DNA of 40,533 nucleotides, taken from contig JAFVYZ010000054.1 in assembly GCA_017508425.1 (NCBI GenBank), forward strand, positions 1 to 40,533, given 5' to 3'. Position 1 is the first letter of the stretch; every line of letters starts with the position of its first letter. A program made the position numbers and the translations under genes. The stretch comes from Clostridia bacterium. Lineage in GTDB: Bacteria; Bacillota; Clostridia; Oscillospirales; CAG-272. Positions 6,526-40,173 of the stretch are shown here, piece after piece. Under the pieces are notes generated by a model, which saw nothing but the letters and a program-made list of their open reading frames with translations, was not told the origin of the DNA and made no database searches.

Positions 6526-6567
6526 GCATCAAAAATGTGATAATTGCTTGATTTTTTGAAATAATAC

Positions 6568-6596: not shown

Positions 6597-6638
6597 GTAG
6601 TGTAGATGCTTTAATATTTTGACAATGGCGGTATCCAT

Positions 6639-12671: not shown

Positions 12672-12751
12672 TTCGTTTGAACACAAAACGTTCACAAACG
12701 AACAGAAGGGGCGGGTGAGAGTCCTGCCAAGTACAGGAAAAGGAGATTTTC
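12672..12751 (+). other. Structured 5' leader of the giant protein mRNA
   Basis: Within the predicted leader, TTCGTTTG (12672) pairs with CAAACGAA (12695-12702), extended by GAAC/GTTC with a bulge. A second stem pairs GGCGGG with CCTGCC, and an alternative CCTG/CAGG pairing ends just before the AAAAGGAG ribosome binding site. The overlapping pairings could act as a switch or stabilise the mRNA; I do not recognise a known riboswitch. Confidence 0.4.
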
Positions 12752-12753
12752 TT

Positions 12754-23641: not shown

Positions 23642-23655
23642 GTTCGTTGTCCTTT

Positions 23656-25173
23656 TCAGGCGTTTTTTGCGGCAAGAGCCAAAATTTCCTCTTGCGTGGC
23701 GGTGGAGGCATTGACTTCGCCCGTCAGAGTCCCGCCCGACATCACAAGAATGCGGTGACAAATACCAAGCAGCTCGGGCAATTCGCTGGAGATCACCAAA
23801 ATCGATTTTCCGCGTGCGGCAAGCTCCTCAATGAGCTGATAGATCTCGTATTTGGCCCCCACGTCAATACCGCGTGTCGGCTCGTCAAGCAAGAAAACAT
23901 CGGGGTCTGTGAGGAGCCAGCGCCCGAAAATGACCTTTTGCTGATTGCCGCCCGAGAGGGTCTGAAGTGGCGTGGCACGGGAGGCGGCTTTGACGGAAAG
24001 GCGCGAGATCAATTCCTCGGTTTTTTTCACCCGTTGGCGGTCATTTATGAAAATTCCGCCCCAAAGGAAGGATTTTAGTGCCGCAACGGTCATGTTTTCG
24101 GTAATGCTCAGGATCCCGAAAATGCCGCTTGAGCGACGCTCCTCGGTCAGGAATGCAAAGCCGTTTCGCTTGGCTGCACCGGGGGTCTTGTTGCCGATCT
24201 CCTTGCCGTGAAGAAAAAGTTTTCCTTTTTCGCGTGCGGAAAGACCGAAAAGGTTTTCAAACAGCTCGCTTCGCCCGGCGCCCGCAAGGCCTGCGAGGCC
24301 AACGATCTCGCCGCGCCGAAGCGAAAAGGAAACGTCATTCACCTTTTGATAGCGCGAGCAAATGCCCTTGACCTCAAAGATCACCTCGCCGGGTGTCGCG
24401 GTCTTCGGGGGAAAGCGGTCCTTCAGCTCACGCCCGACCATAAGGCGAATGATCTCATCCATGGTCAGCTCCGCCGTCGGTGCCGTTTTGACATGCGCAC
24501 CGTCACGCATGACGGTGATCTCATCGGCGATCCGGAAGATCTCCTCCATCTTATGAGAAATATAAATGATGCCGCACCCGCGTGCCTTTAGTGTGTTGAT
24601 CATCGAAAACAAATGCGAGACCTCCCCTTCGGTCAGGGATGACGTGGGCTCGTCCAGTACAATGATTTTCGCACCAAAGGACACGGCCTTTGCGATCTCT
24701 ACCATTTGGCGATCCGCTACGGGCAGTGTGGACATCATGCGGCGCGGATCGATTGAAATGTTAAGATTTTGCAACACGTCCTCGGTTTTTTCAATCATTT
24801 CGCGCTCTTTTATGAAGATTTTGAATCGGGTTTTGTAACGCCCGAGCCACACGTTGTCCATGACACTGCGCGAGAGCGCTTGCGAAAGCTCCTGGTGGAC
24901 CATGGCCACTCCGTGATCGAGCGCCTCGCGTGGATTTCGGAAGCGGACCTGCTTGCCCTCCAAAAAAACACCCCCCTCATCCGGGGCATAAATGCCGAAA
25001 AGGCATTTCATCAGGGTGGATTTTCCGGCCCCGTTTTCGCCCATCAGCGCGTGCACCGTTCCGGCCTTGACGGAAAGAGAGGCGTCGCGCAGAGCCTGCA
25101 CACCGGGAAAGGATTTTCGCATGCCGCGCATCTCCAGCAAAGCGGGGCTGCTTTTTGACCCGTTAGCCGACAT
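23656..25173 (-). CDS. mglA: Galactose/methylgalactoside ABC transporter ATP-binding protein
   Basis: The 505-residue ATPase has two nucleotide-binding domains in one chain, as in MglA/RbsA. The first has Walker A GENGAGKS (45-52) and Walker B (IIVLDEPTSSL). The second has the usual degenerate Walker A (GLAGAGRS), signature LSGGNQQK and Walker B (VFLLDEPTRGIDVG). It energises sugar import. The start at 25173 overlaps the mglB stop by 11 bases and lacks a strong ribosome binding site, indicating coupling; a longer start at 25212 is possible but adds residues unlike the family. Confidence 0.95.
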   Translation of the reverse strand: MSANGSKSSPALLEMRGMRKSFPGVQALRDASLSVKAGTVHALMGENGAGKSTLMKCLFGIYAPDEGGVFLEGKQVRFRNPREALDHGVAMVHQELSQALSRSVMDNVWLGRYKTRFKIFIKEREMIEKTEDVLQNLNISIDPRRMMSTLPVADRQMVEIAKAVSFGAKIIVLDEPTSSLTEGEVSHLFSMINTLKARGCGIIYISHKMEEIFRIADEITVMRDGAHVKTAPTAELTMDEIIRLMVGRELKDRFPPKTATPGEVIFEVKGICSRYQKVNDVSFSLRRGEIVGLAGLAGAGRSELFENLFGLSAREKGKLFLHGKEIGNKTPGAAKRNGFAFLTEERRSSGIFGILSITENMTVAALKSFLWGGIFINDRQRVKKTEELISRLSVKAASRATPLQTLSGGNQQKVIFGRWLLTDPDVFLLDEPTRGIDVGAKYEIYQLIEELAARGKSILVISSELPELLGICHRILVMSGGTLTGEVNASTATQEEILALAAKNA

Positions 25174-26230
25174 ATTTTTCGTAGCGGATTCGCAGCTTTC
25201 GGCTGCCTGCATCGAGTGTAAAATCACTTGTATCGCTCAGGAGGTCACGCTCCGCTAAGGCGTTCTTCGAAAGGTGCAGGAGAGCCCTTGCCATACCTGC
25301 CGCATCCTGCTTGATCGTGCCGCTCATTTGCCCCTTGGCAATGAGATTTTTAGCGGCCTCGGTGGCATCCACGCCGAACACGGGAATGGTGGGACTGTCT
25401 GCGCCCTTGTTGTATCCGACGGCGTTCAAGGCCGAAATGGCCCCCTCGGCCATGCCGTCGTTGTTGGAAATGACCAGCTCGATCATGTTGCCGCCCTCGG
25501 CGTTGTATTCGGTCAAGGCCGTGGTCATATATTCACCGGCAGCCGCCGCCGACCATTGGCCGTTTTTGTCCACAAGATAGCCGTTTTTGTTGGAGGCGTC
25601 GTAAAATTTAAGGGGCTTTTTACCATTGGCCGTCAGCTTTTTGTTGGCCTCCTCTACGCTGTATTTGGTGCGGAAAATGGCCTCGTTGTTGCCCTCCTCG
25701 CCCTTGAAAAGAATATAAGAGATCTCCCCGTCGCCGTTGAGATCGTATTTGTCGTAATTGGCAAGCAAAAATTCACCGATCAGCTCTCCTTGCAGGATCC
25801 CGGCCTCCTCGGCCTTGGTGCCGACAAATGCGCACATATCATAGCTTTTCACCACGTCATCGCTGACCTCTCGGTTAAAGAAAACGAGGGGGACCCCGGC
25901 ATCACGTGCCAAGGCCACGATCTCCTTTGCGGCGTCGTCGGAGCCGGTGTTGACAATGTTGACAAGAATGGCCTTGGCACCCTTGGTCAGCGCAGTGCGG
26001 ATCTGTTCGGTTTGGGTGGTCTGGCTGCCGCCCCCGTCGTAATCCTGATGGGAGATCCCGGCATTGGTCAGCTCCTTGTCAAGGGTCGTGCGGACCGAGG
26101 AAATATAGGTGTCGCTGTAATTATAGTAAAACACGTGTACGTCGGTATTCTTCGCGGCGCCGCATCCTGTAAAAAGCGCAAGGACAAGAAGGAGGATCGC
26201 GGCGAATGCCAAACATCTTTTTTTCATCAT
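25163..26230 (-). CDS. mglB: Galactose/glucose-binding lipoprotein
   Basis: The 355-residue protein is a periplasmic-binding-protein type 1 receptor, made as a lipoprotein: the signal peptide ends in LFTGC, with the Cys at about residue 22. The loop DLNGDGEISYILFKGEEG matches the calcium-binding loop of E. coli MglB (DLNKDGQIQF), supporting galactose/glucose specificity over ribose. SNNDGMAEGAI and PVFGVDATEAA are further family motifs. It is the first gene of the operon. Two adjacent ATG codons (26230 and 26227) are possible, with AGCAGG upstream. No convincing promoter was found in front of it. Confidence 0.92.
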   Translation of the reverse strand: MMKKRCLAFAAILLLVLALFTGCGAAKNTDVHVFYYNYSDTYISSVRTTLDKELTNAGISHQDYDGGGSQTTQTEQIRTALTKGAKAILVNIVNTGSDDAAKEIVALARDAGVPLVFFNREVSDDVVKSYDMCAFVGTKAEEAGILQGELIGEFLLANYDKYDLNGDGEISYILFKGEEGNNEAIFRTKYSVEEANKKLTANGKKPLKFYDASNKNGYLVDKNGQWSAAAAGEYMTTALTEYNAEGGNMIELVISNNDGMAEGAISALNAVGYNKGADSPTIPVFGVDATEAAKNLIAKGQMSGTIKQDAAGMARALLHLSKNALAERDLLSDTSDFTLDAGSRKLRIRYEKYVG

Positions 26231-26527
26231 AAAATACCTGCTTTCGCGTTGTTTTTTTGCGCAAGTTTTGCGCGGTTTGGTGTTATTTTGCCTTGTTTTG
26301 GGTGGGTTTATGAAGGTGGTGAATTGGTAAAGTGTGGAGCGACCCTCAACACGCCTTGTGGCGCGTGCAAGGAAAAAGCCTGCGGAAATATGAATTTTTT
26401 GTAAAAACATTTTGTTTTATGCGGTTTGGCAAGATGTAGAATTTCACGCCTTTAATTTGGCTATCCTGCACAAAATGGAAGGGAAAATGTGTTTGCACCT
26501 CGAATTTGATTTTATAACCAAGCGTCT

Positions 26528-26783: not shown

Positions 26784-26813
26784 TTGACGGTTGGCCTGTC
26801 CGTGTGGTAAAAT
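26784..26813 (+). promoter_or_regulatory. Promoter of the seven-gene glycan transport operon
   Basis: TTGACG (26784-26789) and TAAAAT (26808-26813) are 18 bases apart, giving a leader of about 185 bases before the first gene. This is the only good sigma-A match in front of the operon. Confidence 0.72.
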
Positions 26814-27005
26814 GTTGCCATACATCGGGATGACCCCTAAAAAGGTCGTTTCGGGTATCCGACGCATACACGGAGCTTGGGAACGGCGCGCGCCGTTCCA
26901 AATTTGTTTTCGTGCGTGCGATGCGGGTACGCGTTGCGCGGTGCGGCGTTCTCGGTCGTGCCACGCCAATTCGAAGAACTGCGAGTGCAGTAGAGGAGGA
27001 AAAAC
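26814..27005 (+). other. GC-rich structured leader of the glycan operon
   Basis: This untranslated stretch contains the perfect 20-base palindrome GGAACGGCGCGCGCCGTTCC at 26879-26898, flanked by TTG and AAA, followed by ATTTGTTTTCG. The hairpin plus weak T-rich stretch resembles an attenuator. A GACC/GGTC stem lies before it, and AGAGGAGG precedes the start codon. I recognise no known riboswitch. Confidence 0.45.
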
Positions 27006-30000
27006 ATGAAGAAGAAGATGCTCCAACGACTTCTTGCCTTAGTTTTGGCGGTTACCTTCATTTTCGGCGGTTCGCTCACGATCGGTGCGACCACCGAGGA
27101 TACGAAGGATGCCGGTTCCACCACCGACAAAACTTTGGCAGATATCAGGGAACAACTCAATGCGGATTCCTATGAGACGTACATGAAAGAAAACGCGGAC
27201 ATAGGAAGAGCGAGCGCGGCGATCACGATCGATGCGCTGCAGTACAAAGAGTTCATTAAGGGTTCCGCGGCCGGTGATGGGGTGAAGGAGATCACGCTTG
27301 AAGACGGCACGAAGCTGCTTTATACGCCGAACTCGGGCACGATCAGCTGGGATATCGATGTTCCCGCTACGGCCAAGTACAGCGTGATCATCAACTATAT
27401 GCCCGATGACGCCAAGACGGCATCGATCGAGCGTATTTTGAAGATCGACGATAAGATCCCCTTCTCGGAGGCGCGTTTCATCACGCTTCCCAAGGTGTGG
27501 AAGAATCAGTATTCTTTCGCCAAGATCGAGGCGACCAAGGATGCGTCGATTGCAGATATTCACGCCGCAGCCCTTGCTGCAGGCTTTGCCGAGGCGGAGC
27601 CGGTGACCGAAGACGGCAAGAGCTATGTTCGCGTAGAGATGCCCAAGGTGTGGACGGCCGAGATCGCCAATTTCGTGAACAAATACACCGTGCGCTTCTT
27701 CACCAAGGATATTGATGACAACGAGATCCGTCCCGGCATGGTGCAGGCACCCGAGCTCTCCGGATTTGAGCTTCGTGATGCCAACGGCTTCTATGCTGAA
27801 ACCTTTGAATTTGTGTTTGAGGCCGGCAAGCGCACCATTTCGTTGGAGGCAGTAAACGAGCCTTTGTCGATCCAATCGATCGTTTTGGTGCCTCACGTGG
27901 ACCTGATGTCCTATGCGGATTATTTGGCACAGTACCAGGGTGTTGGCTCGGGCACGGATAAGATCTTTATCCAGGCCGAGTATGCCGGTGCCTCCTCCTC
28001 GCAAACGGTTTATCCCGTTGAGGACCGTACCGATGCAGCCACCATGCCCTCGGATACCACCTGCACGCTCCTGAATACGGTGGGCGGTGAGAAGTGGCAG
28101 ACGGCGGGTCAGTGGGTTCGCTACACCTTCAAGGCCAACAGCACCGGTATGTACAACATCGCGGCGCGTTACCGTCAAAACGTGCTCGACGGTATGTACG
28201 TGTGCCGTGCACTGCGCATCAGCAGCAGCGACGGCTACTACGACGGCTCGGTGCCCTTCTTTGAGGCCTCGCAGATCCGTTTCAATTACAACTCCGCTTG
28301 GCAGTCAACGCTCATGAACAATGGCGGTGACGCTTACCAGTTCTATTTCAAGGAAGGTGTGGAATACACCATTATCCTTGAGGTGGCACTCGGCTCAATG
28401 GGCGATATCGTTCGTCGTGTGGACGCGGCACTGAGCGCGATCAATAACGACTACCTTGCGATCATGAAGCTGACGGGCGCATCGCCCGACCAGTACCGTG
28501 ACTACGGCTTCTCGCGCGTGATGCCCGACGTCATGATCGATATGATCCTGCAGTCCCGTGAGCTGTATGATATTGCAAACGAGCTGGCGATCAAGGCCGG
28601 TGAAAAGAGCTCGAACGTGGCAACCCTTGAAAAGGTAGCTTGGCTTCTTGAGCGTATGGGCACCAACGAGGACGAGGTTGCAAAATACCTTGACCAGCTG
28701 AAGTCCTACATCGGCTCGCTCGGTACTTGGGTGAGTGATGCTAAGACCCAGCCCCTGCAGCTCGATTATTTGGTGGTTCAGCCCTTGGGTGATGAGCTGC
28801 CCCGTGCGAAGGCCGGCTTCTGGCAGTCGCTTTGGCACGAGCTTTCGAGCTTTGTGATGTCTTTCTTCCGCAACTACGACCGTATGGGCGCTACCGATAA
28901 GGAGTTCGATCAATCGACCAGCACTGACGTTTGGATCGCTACCGGTCGTGACCAGGCGCAGGTGCTTCGCAACCTGATCAACAACGACTTTACGCCCAAC
29001 AGCCCCGACGGTACGACCGTAAATCTGAAGCTCGTTGCTGCCGGCACACTCCTGCCCTCGGTTCTCGCGGGCATGGGCCCTGACGTTTACATCGGCGTCG
29101 GCGAGGGTAGCGTTATTAACTACGCGATCCGCGGCGCCTTGCTGCCGATTGAAAACATGGAGGGCTTTGAGGAATACACCTCCTCGAACTTTAACGAGGC
29201 CGCCATGGTGGTGCTTGGTATCGAGGATTCCGACGGTGTTTATCACTGCTACGGCTTGCCCGAAACGCAAAACTTCCATATGATGTTCGTGCGCGAGGAT
29301 GTGCTCGCGGACCTGGGCATCGAGATCCCGAAGACCTGGGATGACGTTCTTGCTGCGATCCCGACCCTGCAGGCCAACAACATGCAGATCGGTATGCACA
29401 CCAACTATCAGATCTTCCTTTACCAAATGGGCGGCACGCTTTTTGCCGACAACGGCATGCGCATCAACCTCGACTCGAACGTCGGTCTTGAGGCGTTTGA
29501 TATGATGTGTAGCCTTTATACCATGTATTCCTTCCCCAAATCCTACGACTTTGCAAACCGCTTCCGTACCGGTGAGATGCCGATCGGCTTTGCGGCTTAC
29601 AACGGCACGTATAATCAGCTTACGGTCTTCGCAACCGAGATCAAGGGCCTTTGGAACTTCTATCCGATGCCCGGCATTGAGCAGCCCGACGGCACGATCA
29701 ACAACATGAGCGTGGCAACCGTTACCGCCATTTGCATGATGAACGGTTGTGGCGGCGAGGGCGGTGAAGAGGGAGCAAAGGACCAGGCTCGCGCTTGGGA
29801 GTTTATGAAGTGGCACTCCGGTGCAAAATGCCAGATCGATTACTCCAACGAAATGGTGGCAATCATCGGTCCCTCGGCAAAGCACGCAACCGCAAACCTG
29901 AACGCCCTTTCCGAAATGCCTTGGACCTCGGCAGAGCTTGAACAGCTGCTTTATCAGTTTAATAATCTTGCGTCGATCCCCGATTACCCCGGCACTTATA

Positions 30001-30410
30001 TTATTGGACGTTATACGAACTTTGCATTCCTTGCCGCTTACAACGATAACAAGGACCCTGTGCAGGAGCTGCAAAGCTACATTTCTACTATTAATAAAGA
30101 GATCACGAGAAAGCGCGAGGAATTCGGTCTTGAGACCCTTGAGCTCGGTCAAACCCTTCGCACCAAGCGACTGGACCAGTTTGCGGATGCATGGGCTGCT
30201 GACGTCAAGAGCCTTGGTGAAGACCACGCGCTGGTAACCGCAGCAAGTGCGAAGATGGGAGATACCATTCGGTTTATTGAGAGCGGAAAATACGATCTTG
30301 TTGAGTATCACGTTATCAACCACATTCTCAACGAGCTCAAGACTCTGGATAGCACCGCATTTGCAAAAACCATCAAGGCAGCGGAAAACGCACTCCTTGT
30401 GATGGCGTAA
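27006..30410 (+). CDS. Large extracellular solute-binding protein with carbohydrate-binding-like N-terminus
   Basis: The 1134-residue protein has a signal peptide (1-28, cleavage near TIGA) without a lipobox Cys. About residues 50-310 and 318-475 look like two beta-sandwich carbohydrate-binding domains (CBM6/35-like: KIFIQAEYAG, WVRYTFKANSTGMYNIAARYRQ). A helical region (480-600) follows, then an aromatic amphipathic segment near 605-623 (WQSLWHELSSFVMSFF). From about 640 it is a family 1 sugar-binding protein: AGMGPDVYIGVG, YGLPETQNFHMMFVREDVL, IPKTWDDVLAAIP, MPIGFAAYNG. The last 90 residues are helical. It is more than twice the usual receptor length. It is the first gene of the operon, with AGGAGG upstream, and presumably feeds the permeases downstream. 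The ligand is unknown. Confidence 0.9.
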   Translation: MKKKMLQRLLALVLAVTFIFGGSLTIGATTEDTKDAGSTTDKTLADIREQLNADSYETYMKENADIGRASAAITIDALQYKEFIKGSAAGDGVKEITLEDGTKLLYTPNSGTISWDIDVPATAKYSVIINYMPDDAKTASIERILKIDDKIPFSEARFITLPKVWKNQYSFAKIEATKDASIADIHAAALAAGFAEAEPVTEDGKSYVRVEMPKVWTAEIANFVNKYTVRFFTKDIDDNEIRPGMVQAPELSGFELRDANGFYAETFEFVFEAGKRTISLEAVNEPLSIQSIVLVPHVDLMSYADYLAQYQGVGSGTDKIFIQAEYAGASSSQTVYPVEDRTDAATMPSDTTCTLLNTVGGEKWQTAGQWVRYTFKANSTGMYNIAARYRQNVLDGMYVCRALRISSSDGYYDGSVPFFEASQIRFNYNSAWQSTLMNNGGDAYQFYFKEGVEYTIILEVALGSMGDIVRRVDAALSAINNDYLAIMKLTGASPDQYRDYGFSRVMPDVMIDMILQSRELYDIANELAIKAGEKSSNVATLEKVAWLLERMGTNEDEVAKYLDQLKSYIGSLGTWVSDAKTQPLQLDYLVVQPLGDELPRAKAGFWQSLWHELSSFVMSFFRNYDRMGATDKEFDQSTSTDVWIATGRDQAQVLRNLINNDFTPNSPDGTTVNLKLVAAGTLLPSVLAGMGPDVYIGVGEGSVINYAIRGALLPIENMEGFEEYTSSNFNEAAMVVLGIEDSDGVYHCYGLPETQNFHMMFVREDVLADLGIEIPKTWDDVLAAIPTLQANNMQIGMHTNYQIFLYQMGGTLFADNGMRINLDSNVGLEAFDMMCSLYTMYSFPKSYDFANRFRTGEMPIGFAAYNGTYNQLTVFATEIKGLWNFYPMPGIEQPDGTINNMSVATVTAICMMNGCGGEGGEEGAKDQARAWEFMKWHSGAKCQIDYSNEMVAIIGPSAKHATANLNALSEMPWTSAELEQLLYQFNNLASIPDYPGTYIIGRYTNFAFLAAYNDNKDPVQELQSYISTINKEITRKREEFGLETLELGQTLRTKRLDQFADAWAADVKSLGEDHALVTAASAKMGDTIRFIESGKYDLVEYHVINHILNELKTLDSTAFAKTIKAAENALLVMA

Positions 30411-30451
30411 GGTTGGCTACATTTATATTAGTGCTGTAAGGAGAAAACAAC

Positions 30452-31387
30452 ATGTCAAAGAAAAAAGCGGTGATCCGATCGGACATGACGCGAGCACAGT
30501 GGACGTGGAAGGAGATGAAACGCAATAAGGTCGCTTATGCAATGGTAGCGCCTTATATGCTGCTCTTCACGCTTTTCACGGTCGTTCCCGTGGTACTTTC
30601 GATGGTGGTCAGTTTAACAAACTTTAACCTGCTCGAGATCCCGGACGTAGTTTGGCTTGACAACTATATCCGTTTGTTCCTCGACGACGATATTTTCATT
30701 CTCGCTTGTAAAAACACCTTGATCTTTGCAATCATCGTAGGCCCTGTTTCCTACTTGATGTCTTTGATGGTTGCATGGTTCATCAACGAGCTGCCCCCCA
30801 AGATCCGTGCGGTGGTTACGCTCATCTTCTATGCGCCCTCTATTTCGGGTCAGGTTTACCTGATTTGGGGTACGCTCTTCTCGGGCGACTCCTATGGTTG
30901 GGTCAACGGTATTCTGCTTGACCTTGGCCTGATCTCCTCCGAGATCCAATGGTTCCAAAATGCAGATTACGTAATGCCTCTTTGTATCGTGGTAGCTCTT
31001 TGGACCTCGCTTGGCACCTCGTTCCTGTCCTTTATTGCAGGTCTTCAGGGCATCGATCGCTCGATGTATGAGGCCGGTGCCGTGGACGGTATCCGCAACC
31101 GTTGGCAGGAGCTTTGGTACATCACGCTGCCCTCGATGAAGCCGCAGCTGATGTTCGGTGCCGTTATGGCAATTACCTCTTCGTTCGGCTTCGGTGGTGT
31201 CGTTACCGCGCTTTGTGGCTTCCCCTCGGTGGACTACGCGGCGCATACCATTATGCACCATCTTGATGACTACGGCTCTCAGCGTTTCGAGGTTGGCTAT
31301 TCCTCGGCGATCGCAGTGGTCCTGTTTGCCGTCATGATCGGCGCGAATATGCTGGTCAAGAAAGTGCTTTCAAAGGTGGGTCAGTAA
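30452..31387 (+). CDS. Sugar ABC transporter permease, MalF/UgpA type (first pair)
   Basis: The 311-residue permease has six helices, starting with KVAYAMVAPYMLLFTLFTVVP, the common first helix of this class. The EAA loop that contacts the ATPase is MYEAGAVDGIRNRWQELWYITLPSMKPQL (about 205-230). It has no large extracellular P2 loop, so it is the short UgpA/LacF form. It follows the binding protein by 41 bases with AAGGAG, and its stop is one base before the partner permease start. Together they form the membrane channel for an oligosaccharide-type substrate. Confidence 0.95.
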   Translation: MSKKKAVIRSDMTRAQWTWKEMKRNKVAYAMVAPYMLLFTLFTVVPVVLSMVVSLTNFNLLEIPDVVWLDNYIRLFLDDDIFILACKNTLIFAIIVGPVSYLMSLMVAWFINELPPKIRAVVTLIFYAPSISGQVYLIWGTLFSGDSYGWVNGILLDLGLISSEIQWFQNADYVMPLCIVVALWTSLGTSFLSFIAGLQGIDRSMYEAGAVDGIRNRWQELWYITLPSMKPQLMFGAVMAITSSFGFGGVVTALCGFPSVDYAAHTIMHHLDDYGSQRFEVGYSSAIAVVLFAVMIGANMLVKKVLSKVGQ

Positions 31388-31388
31388 T

Positions 31389-32264
31389 ATGTCAAAGAAA
31401 CTTCGTACAAGAAAACATAAAGTCGTACTGAACCGCTCGGCCGGCGGTGATGCGGGCATTAGTGTAATGCTCATTCTTCTCGGAGCCTTCATGTTCCTGC
31501 CCATGGTTTACGTCGTGATGCAGTCCTTAAAGCCTCTTGACGAGCTGTGGATGTTCCCCCCGCGCTTCTTCGTGCGCAACCCTACATTTAGAAATTACCG
31601 CGACCTGTTTATGCTGATGAACACGTCGTGGGTGCCGTTCTCCCGTTACATTTTTAACACCGTCTTTACCTCCGTTGTAGGTACGGTCGGCAACCTGTTC
31701 TTTTCGTCGCTTGCGGCTTACGCTATGGCGAAGATCAAGTTCCCGGGCGGCAAGACGATGTTTAAAACGGTGCGTATGTCCCTGATGTTCCACTCCACGG
31801 TTACGGCAATCACTTCCTTTATTATAATGAGTATGTTGAACTGGGTCGATACCTATTGGGCCATTATTGTGCCCGCTTGGGTAACCTCGCTCGGCCTTTA
31901 CCTGATGAAGCAGTTCATGGAAACGAACGTCTCCGACGCGGTGCTCGAATCAGCCCGTCTTGACGGTGCCTCCGAGCTTTACACCTTCTGGGTGATTGCA
32001 ATGCCCATGGTTAAGCCCGCATGGCTGACGCTGATCATTTACTCGTTCCAAGATCTTTGGAACAAGGGCTCGTCGATCTACATTCACTCCGAGCAGCTCA
32101 AATCCTTTAACTACGCGATCGGCCAGATCATGGCCGGCGGTATCAAGCGTGCCGGTGCGCACGCAGCGTCCCTTGTTATTATGATGTTGGTACCGATCAT
32201 GGTATTCATTATTTCTCAGTCCAACATCATTGAGACGATGGGCTCTTCCGGTATGAAAGACTAA
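31389..32264 (+). CDS. Carbohydrate ABC transporter permease, MalG/UgpE type (first pair)
   Basis: The 291-residue permease completes the first pair. Its N-terminal helix is preceded by a basic segment, as in UgpE/LacG proteins, and the EAA loop is VLESARLDGASELYTFWVIAMPMVKP (about 195-220). The start lies one base after the upstream stop with only a weak GGTGGG site, so translation is coupled. It is followed after 15 bases by the NHL/Yip1 gene. Substrate specificity cannot be read from it. Confidence 0.95.
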   Translation: MSKKLRTRKHKVVLNRSAGGDAGISVMLILLGAFMFLPMVYVVMQSLKPLDELWMFPPRFFVRNPTFRNYRDLFMLMNTSWVPFSRYIFNTVFTSVVGTVGNLFFSSLAAYAMAKIKFPGGKTMFKTVRMSLMFHSTVTAITSFIIMSMLNWVDTYWAIIVPAWVTSLGLYLMKQFMETNVSDAVLESARLDGASELYTFWVIAMPMVKPAWLTLIIYSFQDLWNKGSSIYIHSEQLKSFNYAIGQIMAGGIKRAGAHAASLVIMMLVPIMVFIISQSNIIETMGSSGMKD

Positions 32265-32279
32265 TTAGGGAGGAAAAAC

Positions 32280-34463
32280 ATGAAAAAAATCATATCTGTT
32301 GTATGTGTGCTGTTTGCCCTCCTGATGGCGCTTTCGCTTCCGGCAGGTGCCGCACAGGCATATACGACCTATACCTATTCGATTGATGGAAAGCCGCTGT
32401 ATTCGCCCGATGCCTATACGGCTGAGAAGGTGATCACGCACACTTCCATGGGCCTTGATACGGCACTTTCCAACGTCAACGATATGGTCACTGATGCCGA
32501 CGGCAATGTTTACATTGTCGATACCGACAACAACCGTATTGTTTGCCTTGACAAATACTTCCACCTTCGCTTTGAAATTAAAAATTTCACGAACGGTCAC
32601 GGTATTGCCGACTATTTCACCAAGCCTGAGGGTGTCTTCGTTACCGAGGATCGCTATGAGGGCGGTAAGCTGAAGTACAAGGGCCGCATCTTTGTGTGCG
32701 ACACGCAGGCAAACCGTATCGTCACCTTTAACCGTGACGGCAGCTTTGATTCGATCATTGAGGCGCCGAAGTCCGAGCTTTTCTCGGAGGACGCCGTATA
32801 TTGGCCCGTTGCCATCGCCGTGGACGCTTATGAGCGACTTTACGTGGTTTCGACCGAGACCAGTGAGGGTATCATCGTGATGACCGATAAGGGTGAGTTC
32901 ACCTCCTTTATCGGTGCACAGCAATCGGCACTTTCCGTGTGGGATCAGATTTGGCGTCGCTTCCAATCCAAAGAGGAACGTCTTCGTTCCGAGATCGTTA
33001 TTTCTTATCCTTATAATAATATTACGATCAACGAAAAGGGCTTTATCTACGCGACCATTTATGCAGAGCCCCTGCTTTCTCAAATGGAATCGGCGATCAC
33101 CTCTAAGGCAACGGCCGGCACCTACGCCCCCGTAAAGCTCCTGAACCCCGCGGGTGATGAGATCATGCGCCGTAACGGCTTCTGGCCGCCTGCAGGTGAG
33201 ATCGATTACAAGTCGCCTGATGCCGGCCTTCAGACGATCCCCGGAATTTCCCGTATCGAGGATGCGGCTTGCGGTCCCGAGGGCACTTGGTCGATCTATG
33301 ATTACAACCGCAGTAAGATCTTTACTTACGACTACGACGGCAACCTGCTCTTTGCCTTTGGCGATACAGGTAGCCTGCTTGGTAACTTTACCTCAAAATC
33401 GATTCGTGCGATCTGCTATCAGGGCGACGTGTTCCTGGTGCTTGACGGCTCGGGTAATATTACGGTGTTCAAGCGCACCGAGTACGGCGACGTGCTTATT
33501 CGTGCACTTCATCACCAAAATGTCCGTCAGTACGACCTTGCTCTGGATGACTGGAGCGAGATCTTGATGAGAAACTCCAACTACGATGCCGCTTACGTAG
33601 GTATTGGTAAGTGCTTGTCACAGGGTAACGTTGGCCGCTATGAGGAGTCGCTTGAGTACTTCCGTGCAGCTTACGATACGCAGTACTATTCGGTGGCATA
33701 TAAGGAGATCCGTAAGGAGTGGATGTCTCGCTTCTTCCTCGCGATTCCTGTTGTCGTTGTCGCGGTTTGCATCTTGCTCAGCAAGTTCCTCAAGCGTGCC
33801 GCTAAGGTCAATAAGGCCGTGTCCGTTTCGGGCAAAAAGCGCACCTTTAAGGATGAGCTTTATTACGTGTTCCATTTGATGTTCCATCCCGTTGACGGCT
33901 TCTGGGATCTGAAGCATGAAAAACGCGGCTCGGTACGCGGTGCACTGGTGTTCCTCGGTATTACCGTGTTGGCACTTTTCTACCGTGCGATCGGCTCGGG
34001 TTACATTATGAATCCTCAGGGCACGGGCTCGGCCAACATCTTTATGCAGATCCTTATTGTGTTCGTACCGGCGCTGCTCTTCGTGATAGCAAACTGGTGC
34101 ATCACGACCTTGTTTGAGGGTGAGGGTAGCTTTAAGGATATTTTTGTGGCGGTTGGTTACTCGGTACTGCCGATTGCGATCGTTACCATTCCCGTAACCC
34201 TTTTCTCGAACTTTGTAGTGGCTGAGGAATTGAACATTCTGAACCTCTTCATCGTGCTCGGCTTTATTTGGGCCGGTGTGCTCCTGTTCTTTGGAACGAT
34301 GGTCACGCACGATTACAATATGCTCAAGAACCTGTTGACTGTCATCGTGACAATTGCCGGTATGGCGTTTATCATGTTCCTTGCGGTGCTCTTTGCTTCG
34401 CTCGTTATGGACATTGTGGAATTCGTAACCGGTATTGTGTCCGAGGTCACTTATCGACTGTAA
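32280..34463 (+). CDS. NHL beta-propeller/TPR protein with C-terminal Yip1-like membrane domain
   Basis: The 727-residue protein has a signal peptide (1-25), then an extracellular six-bladed-type NHL propeller (about 40-410; typical blade VNDMVTDADGNVYIVDTDNNRIVCLD). A TPR-like pair (about 415-475; YDAAYVGIGKCL, YEESLEYFRAAY) and one membrane helix (484-505) follow. A cytoplasmic linker leads to a Yip1-type domain (about 525-727; VFHLMFHPVDGFWDLKHEKRGS) with about five helices. The propeller would sit outside, close to the permeases, and could bind glycan or the large receptor. GGGAGG precedes the start, and the gene lies between the two permease pairs. Its function is unknown; an accessory or sensor role is my inference. 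Confidence 0.85.
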   Translation: MKKIISVVCVLFALLMALSLPAGAAQAYTTYTYSIDGKPLYSPDAYTAEKVITHTSMGLDTALSNVNDMVTDADGNVYIVDTDNNRIVCLDKYFHLRFEIKNFTNGHGIADYFTKPEGVFVTEDRYEGGKLKYKGRIFVCDTQANRIVTFNRDGSFDSIIEAPKSELFSEDAVYWPVAIAVDAYERLYVVSTETSEGIIVMTDKGEFTSFIGAQQSALSVWDQIWRRFQSKEERLRSEIVISYPYNNITINEKGFIYATIYAEPLLSQMESAITSKATAGTYAPVKLLNPAGDEIMRRNGFWPPAGEIDYKSPDAGLQTIPGISRIEDAACGPEGTWSIYDYNRSKIFTYDYDGNLLFAFGDTGSLLGNFTSKSIRAICYQGDVFLVLDGSGNITVFKRTEYGDVLIRALHHQNVRQYDLALDDWSEILMRNSNYDAAYVGIGKCLSQGNVGRYEESLEYFRAAYDTQYYSVAYKEIRKEWMSRFFLAIPVVVVAVCILLSKFLKRAAKVNKAVSVSGKKRTFKDELYYVFHLMFHPVDGFWDLKHEKRGSVRGALVFLGITVLALFYRAIGSGYIMNPQGTGSANIFMQILIVFVPALLFVIANWCITTLFEGEGSFKDIFVAVGYSVLPIAIVTIPVTLFSNFVVAEELNILNLFIVLGFIWAGVLLFFGTMVTHDYNMLKNLLTVIVTIAGMAFIMFLAVLFASLVMDIVEFVTGIVSEVTYRL

Positions 34464-34482
34464 GCGCGAAAGGAGATTAAAA

Positions 34483-37400
34483 ATGAAAACTAAAAAACTG
34501 CTGATGCGGTTGCTCTGCGCGCTGTTGTCGATGGTGATGCTTGCGTGTATGCTGCCCGCAATAACGGTTTCCGCCGCGGAAGAGTCGGAGGAGGAGACCA
34601 AGATCGATTATACCAATCAGGCTTTCGAAAGTGCCGAAAAGCGTTACGAGGCGATGACGCCTTACTACAATAACGGTACTTACGAGCTGGCCTGCGATGA
34701 GAAGCTTGGTATTGTCGCTTATAAGAAGCTTTCTACCGGTGAGATCCTGTTTACCAACCCTTGGGATATGACCAAGGAGCCTTCGAAGGAGGCAAGCGTT
34801 CGTCAGGAGCTGATGTCGCAGATCGTGCTGACCTACTCGGATAACAAGAGTAACGGCAAGACGCTGACGAGCTATGCGGACGCCATTATGAAGGGTCAAT
34901 ATGCGGTAACGCCCATTAAAAACGGCGTTCGCGTAGAATATGCGCTCGGTGAGATCTCCGCGCGTGTGCTCGTACCCCTTCGTATTGAACAAACCAGCTT
35001 TGAAGAGAAGATCATGAAGCCGCTCAACGAGGCGCTCAGTGCTCGTGACTTTAACAAGTTCATGGCGTACTTCTCCCTCAAAAAGCAGGGTGGCAGCGGT
35101 ATTGCCGCCGCATACCCCATTACCGAGAAGAAGAACATCAACATCTACGTTTTCAACGATGATGCAAGCAAGATCAAAATTCTTCGTGAGCTTGAGGCAT
35201 TGATCCTGGAGCATTGCCCCGACTACTCCTTTGCTCAAATGGACGAGGATTATGAATTCGTTGAATTCGAATACGAAGCTACCTCGCCTGCGGTATTTAG
35301 ACTCGCTCTTGAATACACCATTGATGCAAACGGTCTTTCGGTGGCACTCCCCGCAAACGGTCTTCGTTACGACGAGACGGTTTACCGTATTGACGACCTT
35401 CGCATCCTGCCTTACATGGGTGCATCCTATAAGGGCAACACGGGCGTGGACCGCGAAACCGGAGAGCCGATCGACGGTGATTTCACCTACTCGGGTTACA
35501 CCTTTATACCGGATAGCTCCGGTGCGCTTTATGAGCTTACCGAGATCACCACGCGTCCTGCACGTGTGTACGGTGAGGACTATGCGCTCTTCTCGCTCAA
35601 TGGCTCTCACGTAGCTCCGATGCGTATGCCCGTGTTCGGTCAGATCGAGGTCAAGACCAATACCAAGACGGGTGAAAAGGAGAGCCGCGGCTTTGTGGCC
35701 ATCATCGAAGAGGGCGAAAGCTTTGCTTCGATCGCACCCAACCACAGTACCAAATTCTATTCCTCGGTAGGTGCCTCCTTTATCGCGCGTCAGTCGGACA
35801 GCGCCAACGGTAAATGGTCGGTTTATGCAAGCCGTCGTTACACCGATGACTACAAGCTGCGCTACATTATGCTTTCCGATGACAAAAAGGCGGAAACCGC
35901 AGCGCTGAACAGCTATTACGAATGCTCTTGGATGGGTATGGCCTGCGCCTACCGCGATTATCTCGATGCCAAGAACATTGGCTTCGAGCGTCTTACGTCC
36001 AACGATGTTTCGGCATCGATCCCGCTTTACATTGAGACCTTCGGTTGCATGGATACCGTGCAAAAGGTCATGTCGGTTCCCGTAACCGTGTCTGTGGCTC
36101 TTACCTCGTTTGAGGATATTGAAACGATGTATGAGTACCTGATCGGTCAGGGCGTTACCAACGTTAACTTTAAGCTGACGGGTTATGCCAACGGCGGTCT
36201 TTATTCTGAGGTTCCTTACAAGCTGAAGTGGGAGAGCGCGGTTGGAGGCAAGTCCGGCTTCAAGGACCTGCTTGAGTATGCAGCAGAGCATCCTGAGCTC
36301 GGCATTTTCCCCGACTTCGACTTTGTTTACACCAGCAGCGTTGAGACCAACGTGAATATGAAGAAGTACGGTGCCCGTACGATCGATAACCGTTATACGG
36401 CAAAGCGTTCTTACTCCATTACTCAGCAAACGATGGTCAGCTACTTCCAAATGGTTCTTTCTCCTGCAACGTTTAGCCGCTTCTACGAGAAGCTTGAAAA
36501 GCGTTACAGCAAATACGGCAACGGTGCGATCTCGCTTTCCACCTTCGGCAGCGAATTGAACTCGAGCTTTGCTGAGGAGGATACCGCACTTCGTGAGGAT
36601 GCAAAGCACTACACGATGCAAGCGCTGGAGTACTTCACCTCACGCAACTATGAGGTGATGGTGGATGGCGGCAACGCCTTCACGTGGGGCTATGCGGATT
36701 ACATTCTTGATGTGCCGCTTACCTCGAACCGCTATAACAACGAGTATGCGACCGTACCCTTTATGGGCGTGGTCCTTCACGGCTACGTACAGTTTGCAGG
36801 CACTGCACTCAATATGGAGGGTAACCTCACGTACGCAATGCTGAAGGCGATGGAAAGCGGTGCAGGCGTTTACTTCCTGCTTTCTTACACCAACACCGAG
36901 CTCCTCAAGAGCGATATGCTTCTTTCTCAAAACTATTCGGTTCGTTACGACATTTGGCAGGCACGCTTGGTTGAGATCTATAAGACCCTTGACTCGGTGC
37001 TTGCTGACGTACAAACCAAGCTGATCGTAGATCACGTGCTGCTGGACGGTACGCGTGTGCCGGATGCCGATGAGCTCCTGCAGGACGCAAAGGATGCCGC
37101 TGAAAAAGAGGCAGCCTTGGTTGCACAAAGACGTGAGAACATTGCGTTGGCACTGCAAACTCTTGGTCAGATCAACATGCGTATGAATGGCTACAAGGCC
37201 GATCTTGCCACCAAATATGCGACTCTTCAGGCTTTGCGTGCAAACGGCAGCGTACTGATGAGCGCGTGGGACGCTTACAAGGCAGCTCCTTCCGATGCTG
37301 CTGTAAAGCAGGCGTTCTTCTTGGCACTGACCACGAACGTGGCTGAGCCCATGGCGGACCTCATCCTCCTTCGCAAGACGGTGGATGAATTGAAGACCGC

Positions 37401-37971
37401 GGCCCAGGGCAATTATCAGTTCCTTGTTGATACCAAGGCGGAGGCCGAGGTCGTAGCCGAGGCAAAGACGCTTCTGGATGCCATTTGCGCAACCTATGAT
37501 GCAATGGTTGCCGATTACGGCACGAAGACCGAAGCACTTAATTACGTGCACGCCGATCACCGCGACCTGTTCCTTTACGGTGATGCCGCTTATGCGAACG
37601 TATCGGTAGAGGATCTTTGCGCACTCTTCGTCAGTGCCGTGAAGGGCGACCTTGTTGGCGATGACCGTACCATCGATCTTCAAAAGCTGATCGACACGCT
37701 TGCCGAGGGCCTTACCGTCAAGACCGAGCCTGTTGCAGGTACCACTACGGGTGGAGCTGCAAACGGCAACACCGATACGTCTTACAAGTATGCGGTCGAT
37801 AGTGAGATCGTTTACGTGACCTACGGTGATTACGTGAATGGCAAGAAGGTGGATTATAAGTCCTTGATCCTGAACTTCAACGACTATGCAATCACGACGA
37901 CCGTAAACGGCGTTGTTTACAACATTGCTGCATACGGTTATGCTGTGATCATGCATAACACCAATGCTTAA
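34483..37971 (+). CDS. DUF5696 secreted protein, probable glycosidase relative
   Basis: The 1162-residue protein begins with a signal peptide (1-33; ITVSAA cleavage). A Cys in MLAC within it is a poor lipobox match. A beta-sandwich-like region (about 60-500; YSGYTFIPDSSGALYEL) precedes a segment of alternating strands and helices (about 505-860; ASIPLYIETFG, FPDFDFVYTS, FGSELNSSF, VMVDGGNAFTWGY) that reads like a TIM barrel. Acidic residues near 608, 689 and 727 are candidate catalytic groups. Residues 860-1060 are helical, possibly coiled coil, before a small C-terminal beta domain. The start has AAAGGAG upstream; a reading 16 codons longer overlaps the previous gene. Pfam gives DUF5696 no function; enzymatic cleavage or grip of the imported glycan is my inference from context. 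Confidence 0.85.
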   Translation: MKTKKLLMRLLCALLSMVMLACMLPAITVSAAEESEEETKIDYTNQAFESAEKRYEAMTPYYNNGTYELACDEKLGIVAYKKLSTGEILFTNPWDMTKEPSKEASVRQELMSQIVLTYSDNKSNGKTLTSYADAIMKGQYAVTPIKNGVRVEYALGEISARVLVPLRIEQTSFEEKIMKPLNEALSARDFNKFMAYFSLKKQGGSGIAAAYPITEKKNINIYVFNDDASKIKILRELEALILEHCPDYSFAQMDEDYEFVEFEYEATSPAVFRLALEYTIDANGLSVALPANGLRYDETVYRIDDLRILPYMGASYKGNTGVDRETGEPIDGDFTYSGYTFIPDSSGALYELTEITTRPARVYGEDYALFSLNGSHVAPMRMPVFGQIEVKTNTKTGEKESRGFVAIIEEGESFASIAPNHSTKFYSSVGASFIARQSDSANGKWSVYASRRYTDDYKLRYIMLSDDKKAETAALNSYYECSWMGMACAYRDYLDAKNIGFERLTSNDVSASIPLYIETFGCMDTVQKVMSVPVTVSVALTSFEDIETMYEYLIGQGVTNVNFKLTGYANGGLYSEVPYKLKWESAVGGKSGFKDLLEYAAEHPELGIFPDFDFVYTSSVETNVNMKKYGARTIDNRYTAKRSYSITQQTMVSYFQMVLSPATFSRFYEKLEKRYSKYGNGAISLSTFGSELNSSFAEEDTALREDAKHYTMQALEYFTSRNYEVMVDGGNAFTWGYADYILDVPLTSNRYNNEYATVPFMGVVLHGYVQFAGTALNMEGNLTYAMLKAMESGAGVYFLLSYTNTELLKSDMLLSQNYSVRYDIWQARLVEIYKTLDSVLADVQTKLIVDHVLLDGTRVPDADELLQDAKDAAEKEAALVAQRRENIALALQTLGQINMRMNGYKADLATKYATLQALRANGSVLMSAWDAYKAAPSDAAVKQAFFLALTTNVAEPMADLILLRKTVDELKTAAQGNYQFLVDTKAEAEVVAEAKTLLDAICATYDAMVADYGTKTEALNYVHADHRDLFLYGDAAYANVSVEDLCALFVSAVKGDLVGDDRTIDLQKLIDTLAEGLTVKTEPVAGTTTGGAANGNTDTSYKYAVDSEIVYVTYGDYVNGKKVDYKSLILNFNDYAITTTVNGVVYNIAAYGYAVIMHNTNA

Positions 37972-37988
37972 AAGGAGGGTAAACGCTT

Positions 37989-38984
37989 ATGACAAATCAA
38001 GTTGGGGCTGTAACGAATGTGAAGCCGGCTAAGAAAAAGAAAATACCCTCCCTTGACCGTAAAAAGTCTCGTGCAGGTTGGCTCTTTGTCTTGCCGTTCC
38101 TGATCGGACTGGTCTTCATCTACTTCCCGATCATTTGGGAATCCATTTCTTACAGCGTTTGTAACTACACGATATCAAACGGTATTGTGACCAAAGAGTT
38201 TGTAGGTTTTCAGTATTACACCAAGGCTATCACGGGCGACGCCGCATTTGCGAAGTCGCTCCTGACGGGTCTGAAGGAAATGGCATTTGACATTCCCGCG
38301 ATCCTGATCTTCTCGCTCTTCATCGCCGTGATCCTGAACCAAAAAATGGTGGGTCGTGCGGCATTCCGTGCAATCTTCTTCCTGCCTGTTGTGGTATCTA
38401 CCGGTATCATGGAATCGGTTATGTCCTCGTCTTACGGTGCTTCCGGTGGCTCGATGGACCTCGGTATGGAGGGCGCGGGCGCAGAGGGAGGCGGCGATGC
38501 GGAGGTGCAGGTTCAAACCTCTACCGCAGTGGAGGGACTGCTGATCAGCATTTTCGGCGGTCTTGGCTTCGGTACGGGTCTTGTGACTTACATTTCCTCG
38601 GCAGTTGCAAGTATTTCGGGCATCATCAACCGTTCCGGTGTACAGATCCTGATCTTCCTTGCCGCCCTTCAATCGATCTCGCCGGCCATTTACGAGTCCT
38701 GCCAGATCGACGGTGCGACCTCTTGGGAGACCTTCTGGAAGATCACCTTCCCCATGGTGAGTCCGATGATCTTGGTAAACGCCGTTTATACGATCATTGA
38801 CTCCTTTACAACCGATTCGAACTCGGTCATGATGCTCATTAACGACACGTATATGGGTGTGCAGGAGGGCTCGAAGAACATCAGTGCCGCTATGGGTTGG
38901 ATGTACTTCCTGGTGGTATTGGCGGTAGTTGGCGTGATTGCGGCGATCTTCTCCGCATATGTCTTCTACCAAAGAAGAGATTAA
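37989..38984 (+). CDS. Sugar ABC transporter permease, MalF type, with glycine-rich insertion (second pair)
   Basis: The 331-residue permease starts with a basic tail and the helix RAGWLFVLPFLIGLVFIYFP. The EAA loop is IYESCQIDGATSWETFWKITFPMVSP (about 235-262). Residues about 146-180 are an unusual low-complexity stretch rich in Gly, Ala, Ser and Glu between helices, on the expected outer face. The gene lies 17 bases after DUF5696 with AAAGGAGG upstream, so the second pair appears tied to DUF5696, as the first pair is tied to the binding protein. Confidence 0.93.
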   Translation: MTNQVGAVTNVKPAKKKKIPSLDRKKSRAGWLFVLPFLIGLVFIYFPIIWESISYSVCNYTISNGIVTKEFVGFQYYTKAITGDAAFAKSLLTGLKEMAFDIPAILIFSLFIAVILNQKMVGRAAFRAIFFLPVVVSTGIMESVMSSSYGASGGSMDLGMEGAGAEGGGDAEVQVQTSTAVEGLLISIFGGLGFGTGLVTYISSAVASISGIINRSGVQILIFLAALQSISPAIYESCQIDGATSWETFWKITFPMVSPMILVNAVYTIIDSFTTDSNSVMMLINDTYMGVQEGSKNISAAMGWMYFLVVLAVVGVIAAIFSAYVFYQRRD

Positions 38985-39002
38985 GGAAAGGAGGATGCTA
39001 CT

Positions 39003-40118
39003 ATGACACAAAATATGGACAAAAAGCCCACTGTTATGCGTGAATCAAAAAATAAGATTCGTGTGGACTTTGAACGCACCAGCTTAAAGGAGCGTTTGAA
39101 AACAAAGTACCTTTCCGCGTATTTTGCCAAAAACGTGCTTTGGTATATCTTCCGCCTTTTCCTTTTGATCGGCGTTGCATTCGTGATCCTGAAGCCCTTC
39201 TACACGATGGTGATGCGTTCCTTTATGGCCCCTGAGAATTTTGTGGACGTGACTGTTGTAAATGTCCCCCGCGCCTTCTCGGCCATCATTTACAAGGCAA
39301 TTATCGTGGATTTGGAGTATTTTAAGGTCTTCTTCCTTACGCTTGCGCTTTCGCTCGGCTGTGCATTGCTGCAGACCTTTGCTTGTGCACTTATCGGCTA
39401 CGGCGTAGCAAAATTCAAATTCCGCGGTGCGAAGATCGTGTTCCTCTTGGTGATTATCACCTTGGCGATCCCGCACGGTACGATGCAGTCGGCCATTTTC
39501 TACCGCTTCCAGCATCTTGATATCTTCGGTATCTTTAATTTCCTTGCGGGCGGTGCCCGTACGGGTATTGAAGGCATTGACGCGATCCTTTCTAAGATCA
39601 AGATTTTGCCTGAGAGCTTTGTGGGTGGTATCAGCACCATCCGAAGCGTCGTGCCGATCCTTTTGATGTCGATCACGGGTCTGGCGTTCAAGAACGGTCT
39701 TTACATTTTCTTGCTTCGTCAGTTCTTCCGCGGTGTACCCGATGAGCTTGAGGAGTCCGCTTATTTGGACGGTGCAAACACCTTCCGTACCTTTGTACAG
39801 GTGATCTTGCCCCTTTCGATCCCGATGCTGATCACGGTATTCCTGTTTGCGTTTTGCTGGCAGTGGACGGATGACTTCTACATCCCGCTGTTCTTCACGG
39901 GCAATGCACCCGCGTTGATGACCTATTTGCCTGCCGTTGATCAAATTCCGATCACGCTTGCGACCATTTATACGCAGGTGACGCACTCTGATGGAGGATA
40001 CAAGCAAGCGATTGTTTATGGTTGTGGCCTTATGGCTTGTACGCCCCTCATTATTTTGTACCTGTTCTGCCAAAGATACTTGGTACAGGGTATCGAGCGC
40101 TCCGGTATCGTTGGATAA
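39003..40118 (+). CDS. Carbohydrate ABC transporter permease, MalG type (second pair)
   Basis: The 371-residue permease is about 80 residues longer than its counterpart in the first pair. The extra length comes from a charged N-terminal cytoplasmic tail of about 45 residues and a loop near residues 180-215 (AGGARTGIEGIDAILSKIKI). The EAA loop is LEESAYLDGANTFRTFVQVILPLSIP (about 250-275). It is the last gene of the operon, 18 bases after the third permease with GGAAAGGAGG, and is followed by a terminator. No ATPase gene follows. Confidence 0.94.
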   Translation: MTQNMDKKPTVMRESKNKIRVDFERTSLKERLKTKYLSAYFAKNVLWYIFRLFLLIGVAFVILKPFYTMVMRSFMAPENFVDVTVVNVPRAFSAIIYKAIIVDLEYFKVFFLTLALSLGCALLQTFACALIGYGVAKFKFRGAKIVFLLVIITLAIPHGTMQSAIFYRFQHLDIFGIFNFLAGGARTGIEGIDAILSKIKILPESFVGGISTIRSVVPILLMSITGLAFKNGLYIFLLRQFFRGVPDELEESAYLDGANTFRTFVQVILPLSIPMLITVFLFAFCWQWTDDFYIPLFFTGNAPALMTYLPAVDQIPITLATIYTQVTHSDGGYKQAIVYGCGLMACTPLIILYLFCQRYLVQGIERSGIVG

Positions 40119-40139
40119 TCGATGCCTTACAAAAGTTAC

Positions 40140-40173
40140 GCCCTCGCTCCATTTGGAGCGAGGGCTATCTTTA
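40140..40173 (+). terminator. Intrinsic terminator of the glycan operon
   Basis: GCCCTCGCTCC, loop ATTT and GGAGCGAGGGC form a perfect 11-bp stem followed by TATCTTTAT, 21 bases after the last permease gene. Confidence 0.88.

Follow-up and report, generated by a model that had tools for sequence, protein, structure and literature searches.

A conserved seven-gene operon from a Clostridia bacterium that likely encodes two sugar importers and two helper proteins

The window analysed here is the whole of a 40,533-nucleotide stretch from Clostridia bacterium (assembly GCA_017508425.1, contig JAFVYZ010000054.1, positions 1-40,533 of the forward strand), and its subject is an operon at 26784-40173 that carries a very large receptor, two pairs of permeases and two further proteins (Table 1). 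Seven consecutive open reading frames (ORFs) follow one another on the + strand with intergenic gaps of 41, 1, 15, 19, 17 and 18 bases, as the original prediction, made from the sequence alone, had said (seven same-strand genes, gaps of 1 to 41 bases). We call the seven genes the cassette; the giant receptor, F1 and G1 form half A, and NHL-Yip1, DUF5696, F2 and G2 form half B. Purine-rich ribosome sites lie ahead of the cassette starts, the one of G1 being the least clear. For the DUF5696 gene the mechanical ORF start is a TTG at 34435; a Shine-Dalgarno-like AAAGGAGAT precedes the ATG at 34483, which is most likely the start codon. The claim of one promoter and one terminator stood in part: a promoter-like site precedes the set and a perfect hairpin follows it, but the promoter scan of both strands is noisy (23 promoter-like sites for 13.0 expected, standard deviation 4.5), so additional promoters may lie inside the operon. 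The window ends 415 bases past G2.

Table 1. Features of the operon, with positions in the window and the basis of each assignment
Feature	Positions	Strand	Basis
Promoter-like site, TTGACG-18-TAAAAT, with TG before the second hexamer	26784-26813	+	10/12 consensus match only
Giant extracellular receptor, XloE-like, 1134 amino acids (aa)	27006-30410	+	ORF, profile scores, alignment A4
Permease F1, XloF-like, 311 aa, EAA loop YEAGAVDGIRNRWQELWYITLP	30452-31387	+	Pfam BPD_transp_1, EAA loop
Permease G1, XloG-like, 291 aa, EAA loop kept	31389-32264	+	BPD_transp_1 below cut-off, EAA loop
NHL beta-propeller / TPR / one transmembrane helix / Yip1 membrane domain, 727 aa	32280-34463	+	Pfam
DUF5696, putative exported GH129-like protein, 1162 aa	34483-37971	+	Pfam, profile match
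Permease F2, AxoF-like, 331 aa, EAA loop kept, extra insert relative to F1	37989-38984	+	Pfam, EAA loop
Permease G2, AxoG-like, 371 aa, EAA loop kept, extra insert relative to G1	39003-40118	+	Pfam, EAA loop
Terminator-like hairpin, 11 perfect pairs, short weak T tail	40140-40165	+ (listed on both strands)	Stem scan

Pfam and the receptor-family profile scores agree with the identities first proposed for the parts, namely an oversized receptor, two permease pairs, an NHL/TPR/Yip1 protein and a DUF5696 protein. BPD_transp_1 matched F1 at 9.5e-7, F2 at 7.2e-6 (0.1 bit below the cut-off), G2 at 1.5e-10 and G1 at 3e-4, below the cut-off; the other parts gave Yip1 at 3.9e-18, NHL at 6e-4, TPR weakly and DUF5696 at 9.8e-118. 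The giant receptor begins with an N-terminal signal or anchor, followed by some 600 aa that are in part weakly CBM35/golvesin-like, and its CUT1 solute-binding domain starts at about residue 634; no lipobox was seen in the window's receptor. An hmmscan of that protein returned no receptor family; the genome profile search matched the same frame to SBP_bac_1 (45.5 bits) and SBP_bac_8 (53.9 bits), both over their cut-offs. In an alignment of 30 giant receptors (A4), the other 29 match both families, and the A4 profile retrieved sugar-binding proteins from the PDB (5ysb at 4e-24). By these scores the giant receptor qualifies as the predicted CUT1-type solute-binding protein of the first permease pair.

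The distribution of the cassette was evaluated on 129 loci: 28 from an order set, 20 from a sample of the phylum, 80 named loci taken from one scan of GTDB genomes, and the window. These loci were not de-duplicated; L088 and L068, for example, are the same place, as are L100 and L075. Short search stretches (L001-L022, L058-L065) and seven fetched loci (L043, L047-L051, L057) were left out of the count, L047-L051 and L057 being set aside because they hold only short or weak DUF5696 matches. The two phylum searches drew 299 genomes apiece under identical settings and share their listed handles, so they were taken as one draw, and a maximum of four candidates was scored per genome, so that copy numbers are lower bounds. 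All seven genes stand together in 107 of the 129 loci (24/28 in the order set, 14/20 in the phylum sample, 68/80 of the named loci, and the window). The neighbourhood search that had been proposed thus bears out a distinct unit of co-occurring genes, and chance clustering can be rejected because the order is conserved and not scattered. It recurs in the window's order, in Paenibacillus, in Caldicoprobacter and in others, and the GTDB scan confirmed at least 573 relatives, among Paenibacillus, Bacillus and kin, Cohnella, Caldicoprobacter, Mahella, Lachnospiraceae and others. The gene order is rotated in L056 and L081. Matches to DUF5696 were found in 28 of 39 relatives, own genome included (G001 and G038 hold only short or weak ones), and in 37 of the 299 genomes of the phylum sample, 30 of them over the cut-off.

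The 22 incomplete loci comprise 13 with contig-end cuts or little upstream sequence and nine rows, at eight places, in which half B stands without giant receptor, F1 and G1 despite the presence of flanks (L069, L070, L074, L075=L100, L084, L085, L110, L116). Among these, L110 ends after DUF5696, and L100 has an unrelated weak receptor and a permease pair downstream. Over the 129 loci, full-length DUF5696 adjoins F2-G2 wherever the sequence reaches far enough. Two plasmid records carry the cassette, one of them from Butyrivibrio fibrisolvens, where NHL and Yip1 are split, so that the cassette counts eight genes, and a conventional receptor comes next; all other loci seen are genome contigs, and one scan of viral contigs found no relative, so that we rejected the idea of a phage or plasmid trait.

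Three observations concern single loci or their surroundings. The 1.8 Mb genome G033 holds six DUF5696 loci (L024, L052-L056), five of them complete for the seven components and the sixth truncated by a contig end, and one MalK-type ATPase match for the six. At L078, in a cassette of the Anaerocellum bescii group, the G1 gene is interrupted by 1.6 kb (5532-7173) holding a 442-aa ORF on the opposite strand, transposase-like in look only. Phage genes lie near some cassettes of the window genus (alignment A9; Terminase_6N in 4/56 frames, P22_portal in 1/56).

A textbook importer is made up of a single receptor, a pair of permeases and one ATPase dimer. Both permease pairs of the cassette have the two permeases with EAA coupling loops that are expected of a CUT1 type I importer, and the glutamate of the loop is kept in 108/108 F1, 109/109 G1, 123/123 F2 and 117/124 G2 sequences. 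Because the loops are kept in all four, both pairs appear fit to dock an ATPase. The proposal of two different pairs, forming two channels, is further strengthened by a published relative. The G200 locus reads giant solute-binding protein-F1-G1-NHL/Yip1-DUF5696-F2-G2-solute-binding protein-GH43-GH10-GH39-GH10-...-GH39, and contains, upstream of the giant receptor, a single exact occurrence of the 20-base XynR operator that PMC12285236 gives for the A. bescii xylan degradation locus; from this exact operator we recognised G200 as that locus. PMC8579813 describes the A. bescii operon xloEFG-X-GH129-axoFGE-xynF... as two CUT1 transporters whose expression goes up on xylan and cellulose. By position, its 'X' is NHL-Yip1 and its 'GH129' is the DUF5696 protein. 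The machine was therefore not wholly uncharacterised, as had been supposed: a member of the cassette is in print as two xylan importers, XloEFG and AxoFGE, and the two-channel idea is right in outline.

The window shares with the A. bescii locus the seven genes, their order and orientation, the giant receptor and an operon without an ATPase gene. It differs in what follows: the xylan degradation locus continues with the receptor axoE and the xylan enzymes GH43, GH10 and GH39, whereas the window has a hairpin after G2, a longer DUF5696, no second receptor of the axoE kind and no adjoining xylan enzyme, nor does any recognised glycan enzyme adjoin the cassette in its genus. A likeness also exists to the importers that depend on MsmX or MsmK (AraNPQ and MdxEFG of B. 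subtilis, and those of S. pneumoniae), which, according to PMC7658222, combine a receptor and two permeases with an ATPase supplied in trans. In contrast to these, the cassette has two permease pairs and two further conserved proteins, and its receptor is mostly longer than 950 aa and rarely has a lipobox.

The absence of an ATPase gene from the operon, which had been taken as odd, turned out to be ordinary. Several CUT1 importers of Bacillota without an ATPase of their own share MsmX/MsmK, as described in PMC7658222 and PMC8579813, and A. bescii without MsmK is, according to the latter, impaired in growth on cellobiose, cellulose, xylan and pectin. In the window's own genome, contig C52 breaks off within an ATPase gene, leaving an N-terminal piece of 139 aa that shares 99% identity with a relative's orphan ATPase; with this piece at hand we rejected a new energy source as the explanation for the missing gene. 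The orphan MsmX/UgpC-type ATPase stands alone in the genomes G003 and G020 (97% and 95% complete). Each of these has eight permease matches: four of the cassette, two of amino-acid type and two in an operon that we take, from its gene order and motif, to be of spermidine type. Since the other four matches are of spermidine or amino-acid type, the cassette is the sole CUT1-like client seen in these two genomes. In G023 the ATPase gene is found 1.4 kb upstream of the cassette, and on the Paenibacillus cellulosilyticus plasmid (L206) it opens the cassette, 37 bases ahead of the giant receptor gene, with both permease pairs following; its product is 54% identical to the orphan ATPase. This plasmid is the best evidence for one ATPase gene serving both pairs. 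A MalK/MsmX-type ATPase is thus encoded outside the operon, and would serve this cassette.

The retention of the two halves was evaluated genome by genome, half A being probed by the N-terminal region of the receptor (A5) and half B by full-length DUF5696. Among the 39 relatives, 23 genomes hold both, three DUF5696 only (G002, G012, G037), two the receptor only (G001, G022) and 11 neither, G001 and G038 not being taken as DUF5696 holders. In the phylum sample (299 genomes, own genome included), 28 hold both, two the receptor only (G135, G177) and 269 neither; G045, G088, G124 and G153, with weak matches in short frames, were scored as lacking the receptor. All seven one-sided genomes have a contig end inside or beside the cassette; in G022 only 14 bases separate the end of the receptor frame from it. 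Both plasmid records with one half also hold the other. One lineage has half-cassettes (families f58 and f72): half A stands alone as receptor-F1-G1 in L198, L199 and L203, and G257 has one A-only and one B-only locus on two contigs. In FastTree trees with long branches flagged, the three A-only rows form one group in the F1 tree, and the B-only label requires two changes in the DUF5696 tree. Halves A and B are thus strongly associated across genomes, which are related and do not count as independent events.

These data also bear on a more radical arrangement, a single supercomplex in which NHL-Yip1 joins both permease pairs into a double-channel machine fed by the giant receptor and DUF5696. 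The genome-wide co-occurrence, the contig end at the cassette in every one-sided genome, the lineage that keeps both halves even when unlinked (G257, for example) and the widely conserved order all speak for it, as does the correlation between the distances of all seven components (r 0.86-0.95, 67 non-redundant cassettes). Shared descent alone, however, predicts correlated distances, and physical coupling would be an extrapolation from sequence; moreover, the known type I importers have one permease pair and one ATPase dimer, and the second conventional receptor found near most relatives outside the order fits two separate importers. We consider the supercomplex rather unlikely. Short frames of about 380-560 aa in G045, G088, G124 and G153, all of a single family in the phylum sample, cover the giant receptor's N-terminal region only in part; they are possibly stand-alone binding modules.

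A conventional receptor of about 460 aa was found beside the cassette in 73 of the 80 named loci, in 13 of the 20 phylum-sample loci and in two of the 28 of the order set. This tally covered up to three genes upstream or four downstream, with BLAST groups whose representatives were confirmed by SBP_bac_1; three members of two groupings (about 460-570 aa) and two receptors from other loci were Pfam-scanned. Loose lipobox matches occur in 5/107 giant receptors, 67/102 conventional receptors and 45/107 DUF5696 proteins, the window's own being doubtful. No second receptor for the cassette was found beside the loci of the window genus nor, with two Pfam receptor families, in seven genomes of that genus. 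In six of the seven, nothing besides the giant receptor and a receptor of spermidine type matches these families; the seventh, the window's own genome, adds one inside a complete CUT1 system with its own ATPase. The window operon is a stripped member of the cassette, in which one receptor was not found.

The DUF5696 protein of the window carries an export signal. Ahead of its C-terminal part lies an insertion of some 200 aa, which is also present in the same-family relatives L026, L040 and L046, and is shorter in L044. Profile A3 matched GH129 structures, 5opq and 8rzg at 2-3e-7 over the whole chain and 5wzn and 5wzq at 4-5e-6. The alignment with 5opq comprises three stretches (N-terminal, barrel and C-terminal) in the same order in both, each weak when taken singly (E 0.04, 0.6 and 480). 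The likeness to GH129 (NagBb, ZgGH129) and the related GH101 extends over these three stretches; in contrast to GH129, DUF5696 has no Pfam match to that family (zero matches of the A3 sequences to Glyco_hydro_129, PF11308, at 0.01), lacks a barrel acid pair conserved at 85%, and in its full-length form stands beside F2-G2. A search of 249 genomes with PF11308 gave no match and is uninformative, as the controls were equally silent. Over residues 500-870 of 129 aligned DUF5696 proteins, E791 is the only acid column at 85% or above, so that a conserved catalytic pair is not evident; the barrel acids D611 and D695 are kept in 81 and 82% of rows. Position 695 is D in 98/114 proteins outside the window genus and in 8/15 inside it, and position 755 in 100/114 and 0/15, which suggests that the genus has diverged further at the barrel acids.

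The original prediction had placed DUF5696 outside the cell as an enzyme or second receptor. The export signal and the distant GH129 likeness fit this. If it were an active secreted GH129-type glycosidase that trims the oligosaccharide, the operon would be an ordinary enzyme-plus-transporter locus. We regard this as a tangible possibility, if short of probable: the ordered match of A3 to GH129 structures, the retention of D611 and D695 in more than 80% of rows besides E791, a weak Glyco_hydro_101 match (0.003) in one scanned short homologue and the name GH129 given to the A. bescii protein in PMC8579813 argue for it, and it is opposed by the weakness of the single stretches, the silence of Glyco_hydro_129, E791 as the sole acid at 85% and the loss of D755 and partly of D695 in the genus. 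We propose that DUF5696 may be a GH129-like enzyme turned into a non-enzyme part. The losses in the genus could also mean that half B is decaying there, the receptor and the DUF5696 acids having gone and F2-G2 being kept by inertia; no second receptor in seven genomes, D755 gone in 15 of 15 and a DUF5696 gene interrupted by one TAG in G010 point that way. Decay is nonetheless quite improbable, since all frames of the window are open, F2, G2 and DUF5696 are otherwise intact in the uncut genus loci, and the EAA loops are kept.

Relatives of DUF5696 also occur outside cassettes. Short homologues of about 580-650 aa are found in the window genus (L047-L051, from G001, G013, G018, G004 and G010). 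On contig C45 of the window's own genome (L043, 8822-13300, - strand), a 1492-aa BspA-type leucine-rich repeat protein has a part that shares 49% identity with residues 158-262 of the window's DUF5696. No paper on DUF5696 was found in the open-access literature searched.

NHL-Yip1 is a constant part of the cassette. From its start, which resembles a signal peptide, it runs through an NHL propeller, TPR and one membrane helix to the Yip1 membrane domain; NHL and Yip1 are fused in the window and are separate genes in many relatives. Its median identity is 34% over 67 non-redundant cassettes, and 98 columns reach 85% or more over 107 rows. This constancy, in a protein of unassigned function, is the most interesting loose end of the cassette.

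The genes beside the cassette point to varied cargo. Representatives scanned beside relatives belong to GH10, GH43, GH26, GH30, GH38, GH95, GH5 and fucosidase families, and on the P. cellulosilyticus plasmid the cassette lies among four LLM-class flavin oxidoreductases, which presumably point to a substrate out of the ordinary, perhaps one that contains sulfur. The cassette thus looks like a general carrier that serves diverse substrates. The 'complex glycan' first suggested as cargo was not confirmed for the window, as the genus neighbours given below indicate.

Taken together, the gene content and its conservation suggest that the operon probably encodes two CUT1-type (type I) ATP-binding cassette sugar importers in one transcription unit, together with two helper proteins. 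Importer A would consist of the giant receptor, F1 and G1, and importer B of F2 and G2 with NHL-Yip1 and the GH129-like DUF5696 protein; both pairs would draw their energy from one shared MsmX/UgpC-type ATPase, supplied in trans from a gene elsewhere. NHL-Yip1 and DUF5696 may serve to capture the substrate at the membrane or to present it there, and A and B may act jointly on one oligosaccharide class, an oligosaccharide being also the presumed cargo in the genus itself. There, F2-G2 could borrow the giant receptor, capture substrate via DUF5696 or NHL, or work only as the partner of importer A.

Several points weigh against this reading of two importers. The co-occurrence tallies take in related genomes, which are not independent, and the pairing of F1 with G1 and of F2 with G2 rests on adjacency and analogy. 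No MsmX-type ATPase was found in the 80 named or 20 phylum-sample loci, so that supply in trans is the rule, though presumed for each locus, and the window genome has another complete CUT1 system (L179) whose own ATPase could also serve. Importer B has no dedicated receptor in the window genus, which leaves the import role of F2-G2 putative. None of the 56 closed neighbouring frames scanned at 15 genus loci matched any glycoside hydrolase family at 1e-5; among these neighbours are instead glycerol kinase, MglB-like, DUF1538 and phage terminase genes.

A bolder form of the two-importer reading is a conserved two-channel machine of Bacillota, in which the importers would work only jointly, with NHL-Yip1 as a bridge, DUF5696 turned glycan binder, one ATPase and, in the genus, a single receptor; we hold this to be doubtful. 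In the open-access literature searched we found no description of the wide cassette as such, of the retained pairing of its halves or of a role for the two extra proteins. The genome-wide co-occurrence of the halves, the constancy of NHL-Yip1 and a genus in which no second receptor was found are new here. Two importers kept together with two extra proteins suggest a coupling not described in the literature searched. The function of DUF5696 and NHL-Yip1 becomes testable in harmless cultured hosts such as A. bescii and Paenibacillus, and a role for hundreds of 'function unknown' genes (at least 573 relatives) would follow.

Two other loci of the window deserve mention. A complete MglB-MglA-MglC type galactose/glucose importer lies at 22586-26410 (- strand), divergent from the cassette. 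Its MglA, which we take to be of another class of sugar importers (CUT2), was rejected as a power source for the cassette because it belongs to its own MglBAC set on the other strand. A related Peripla_BP_4 gene also lies beside the cassette in other members of the genus (a cluster of 6 loci; 6/56 neighbours). Further upstream, at 12715-20466 (+ strand), a repeat-rich ORF of 2583 aa with 'TISGGTF'-like motifs gave no Pfam match at 0.01 and is probably a surface beta-helix protein.

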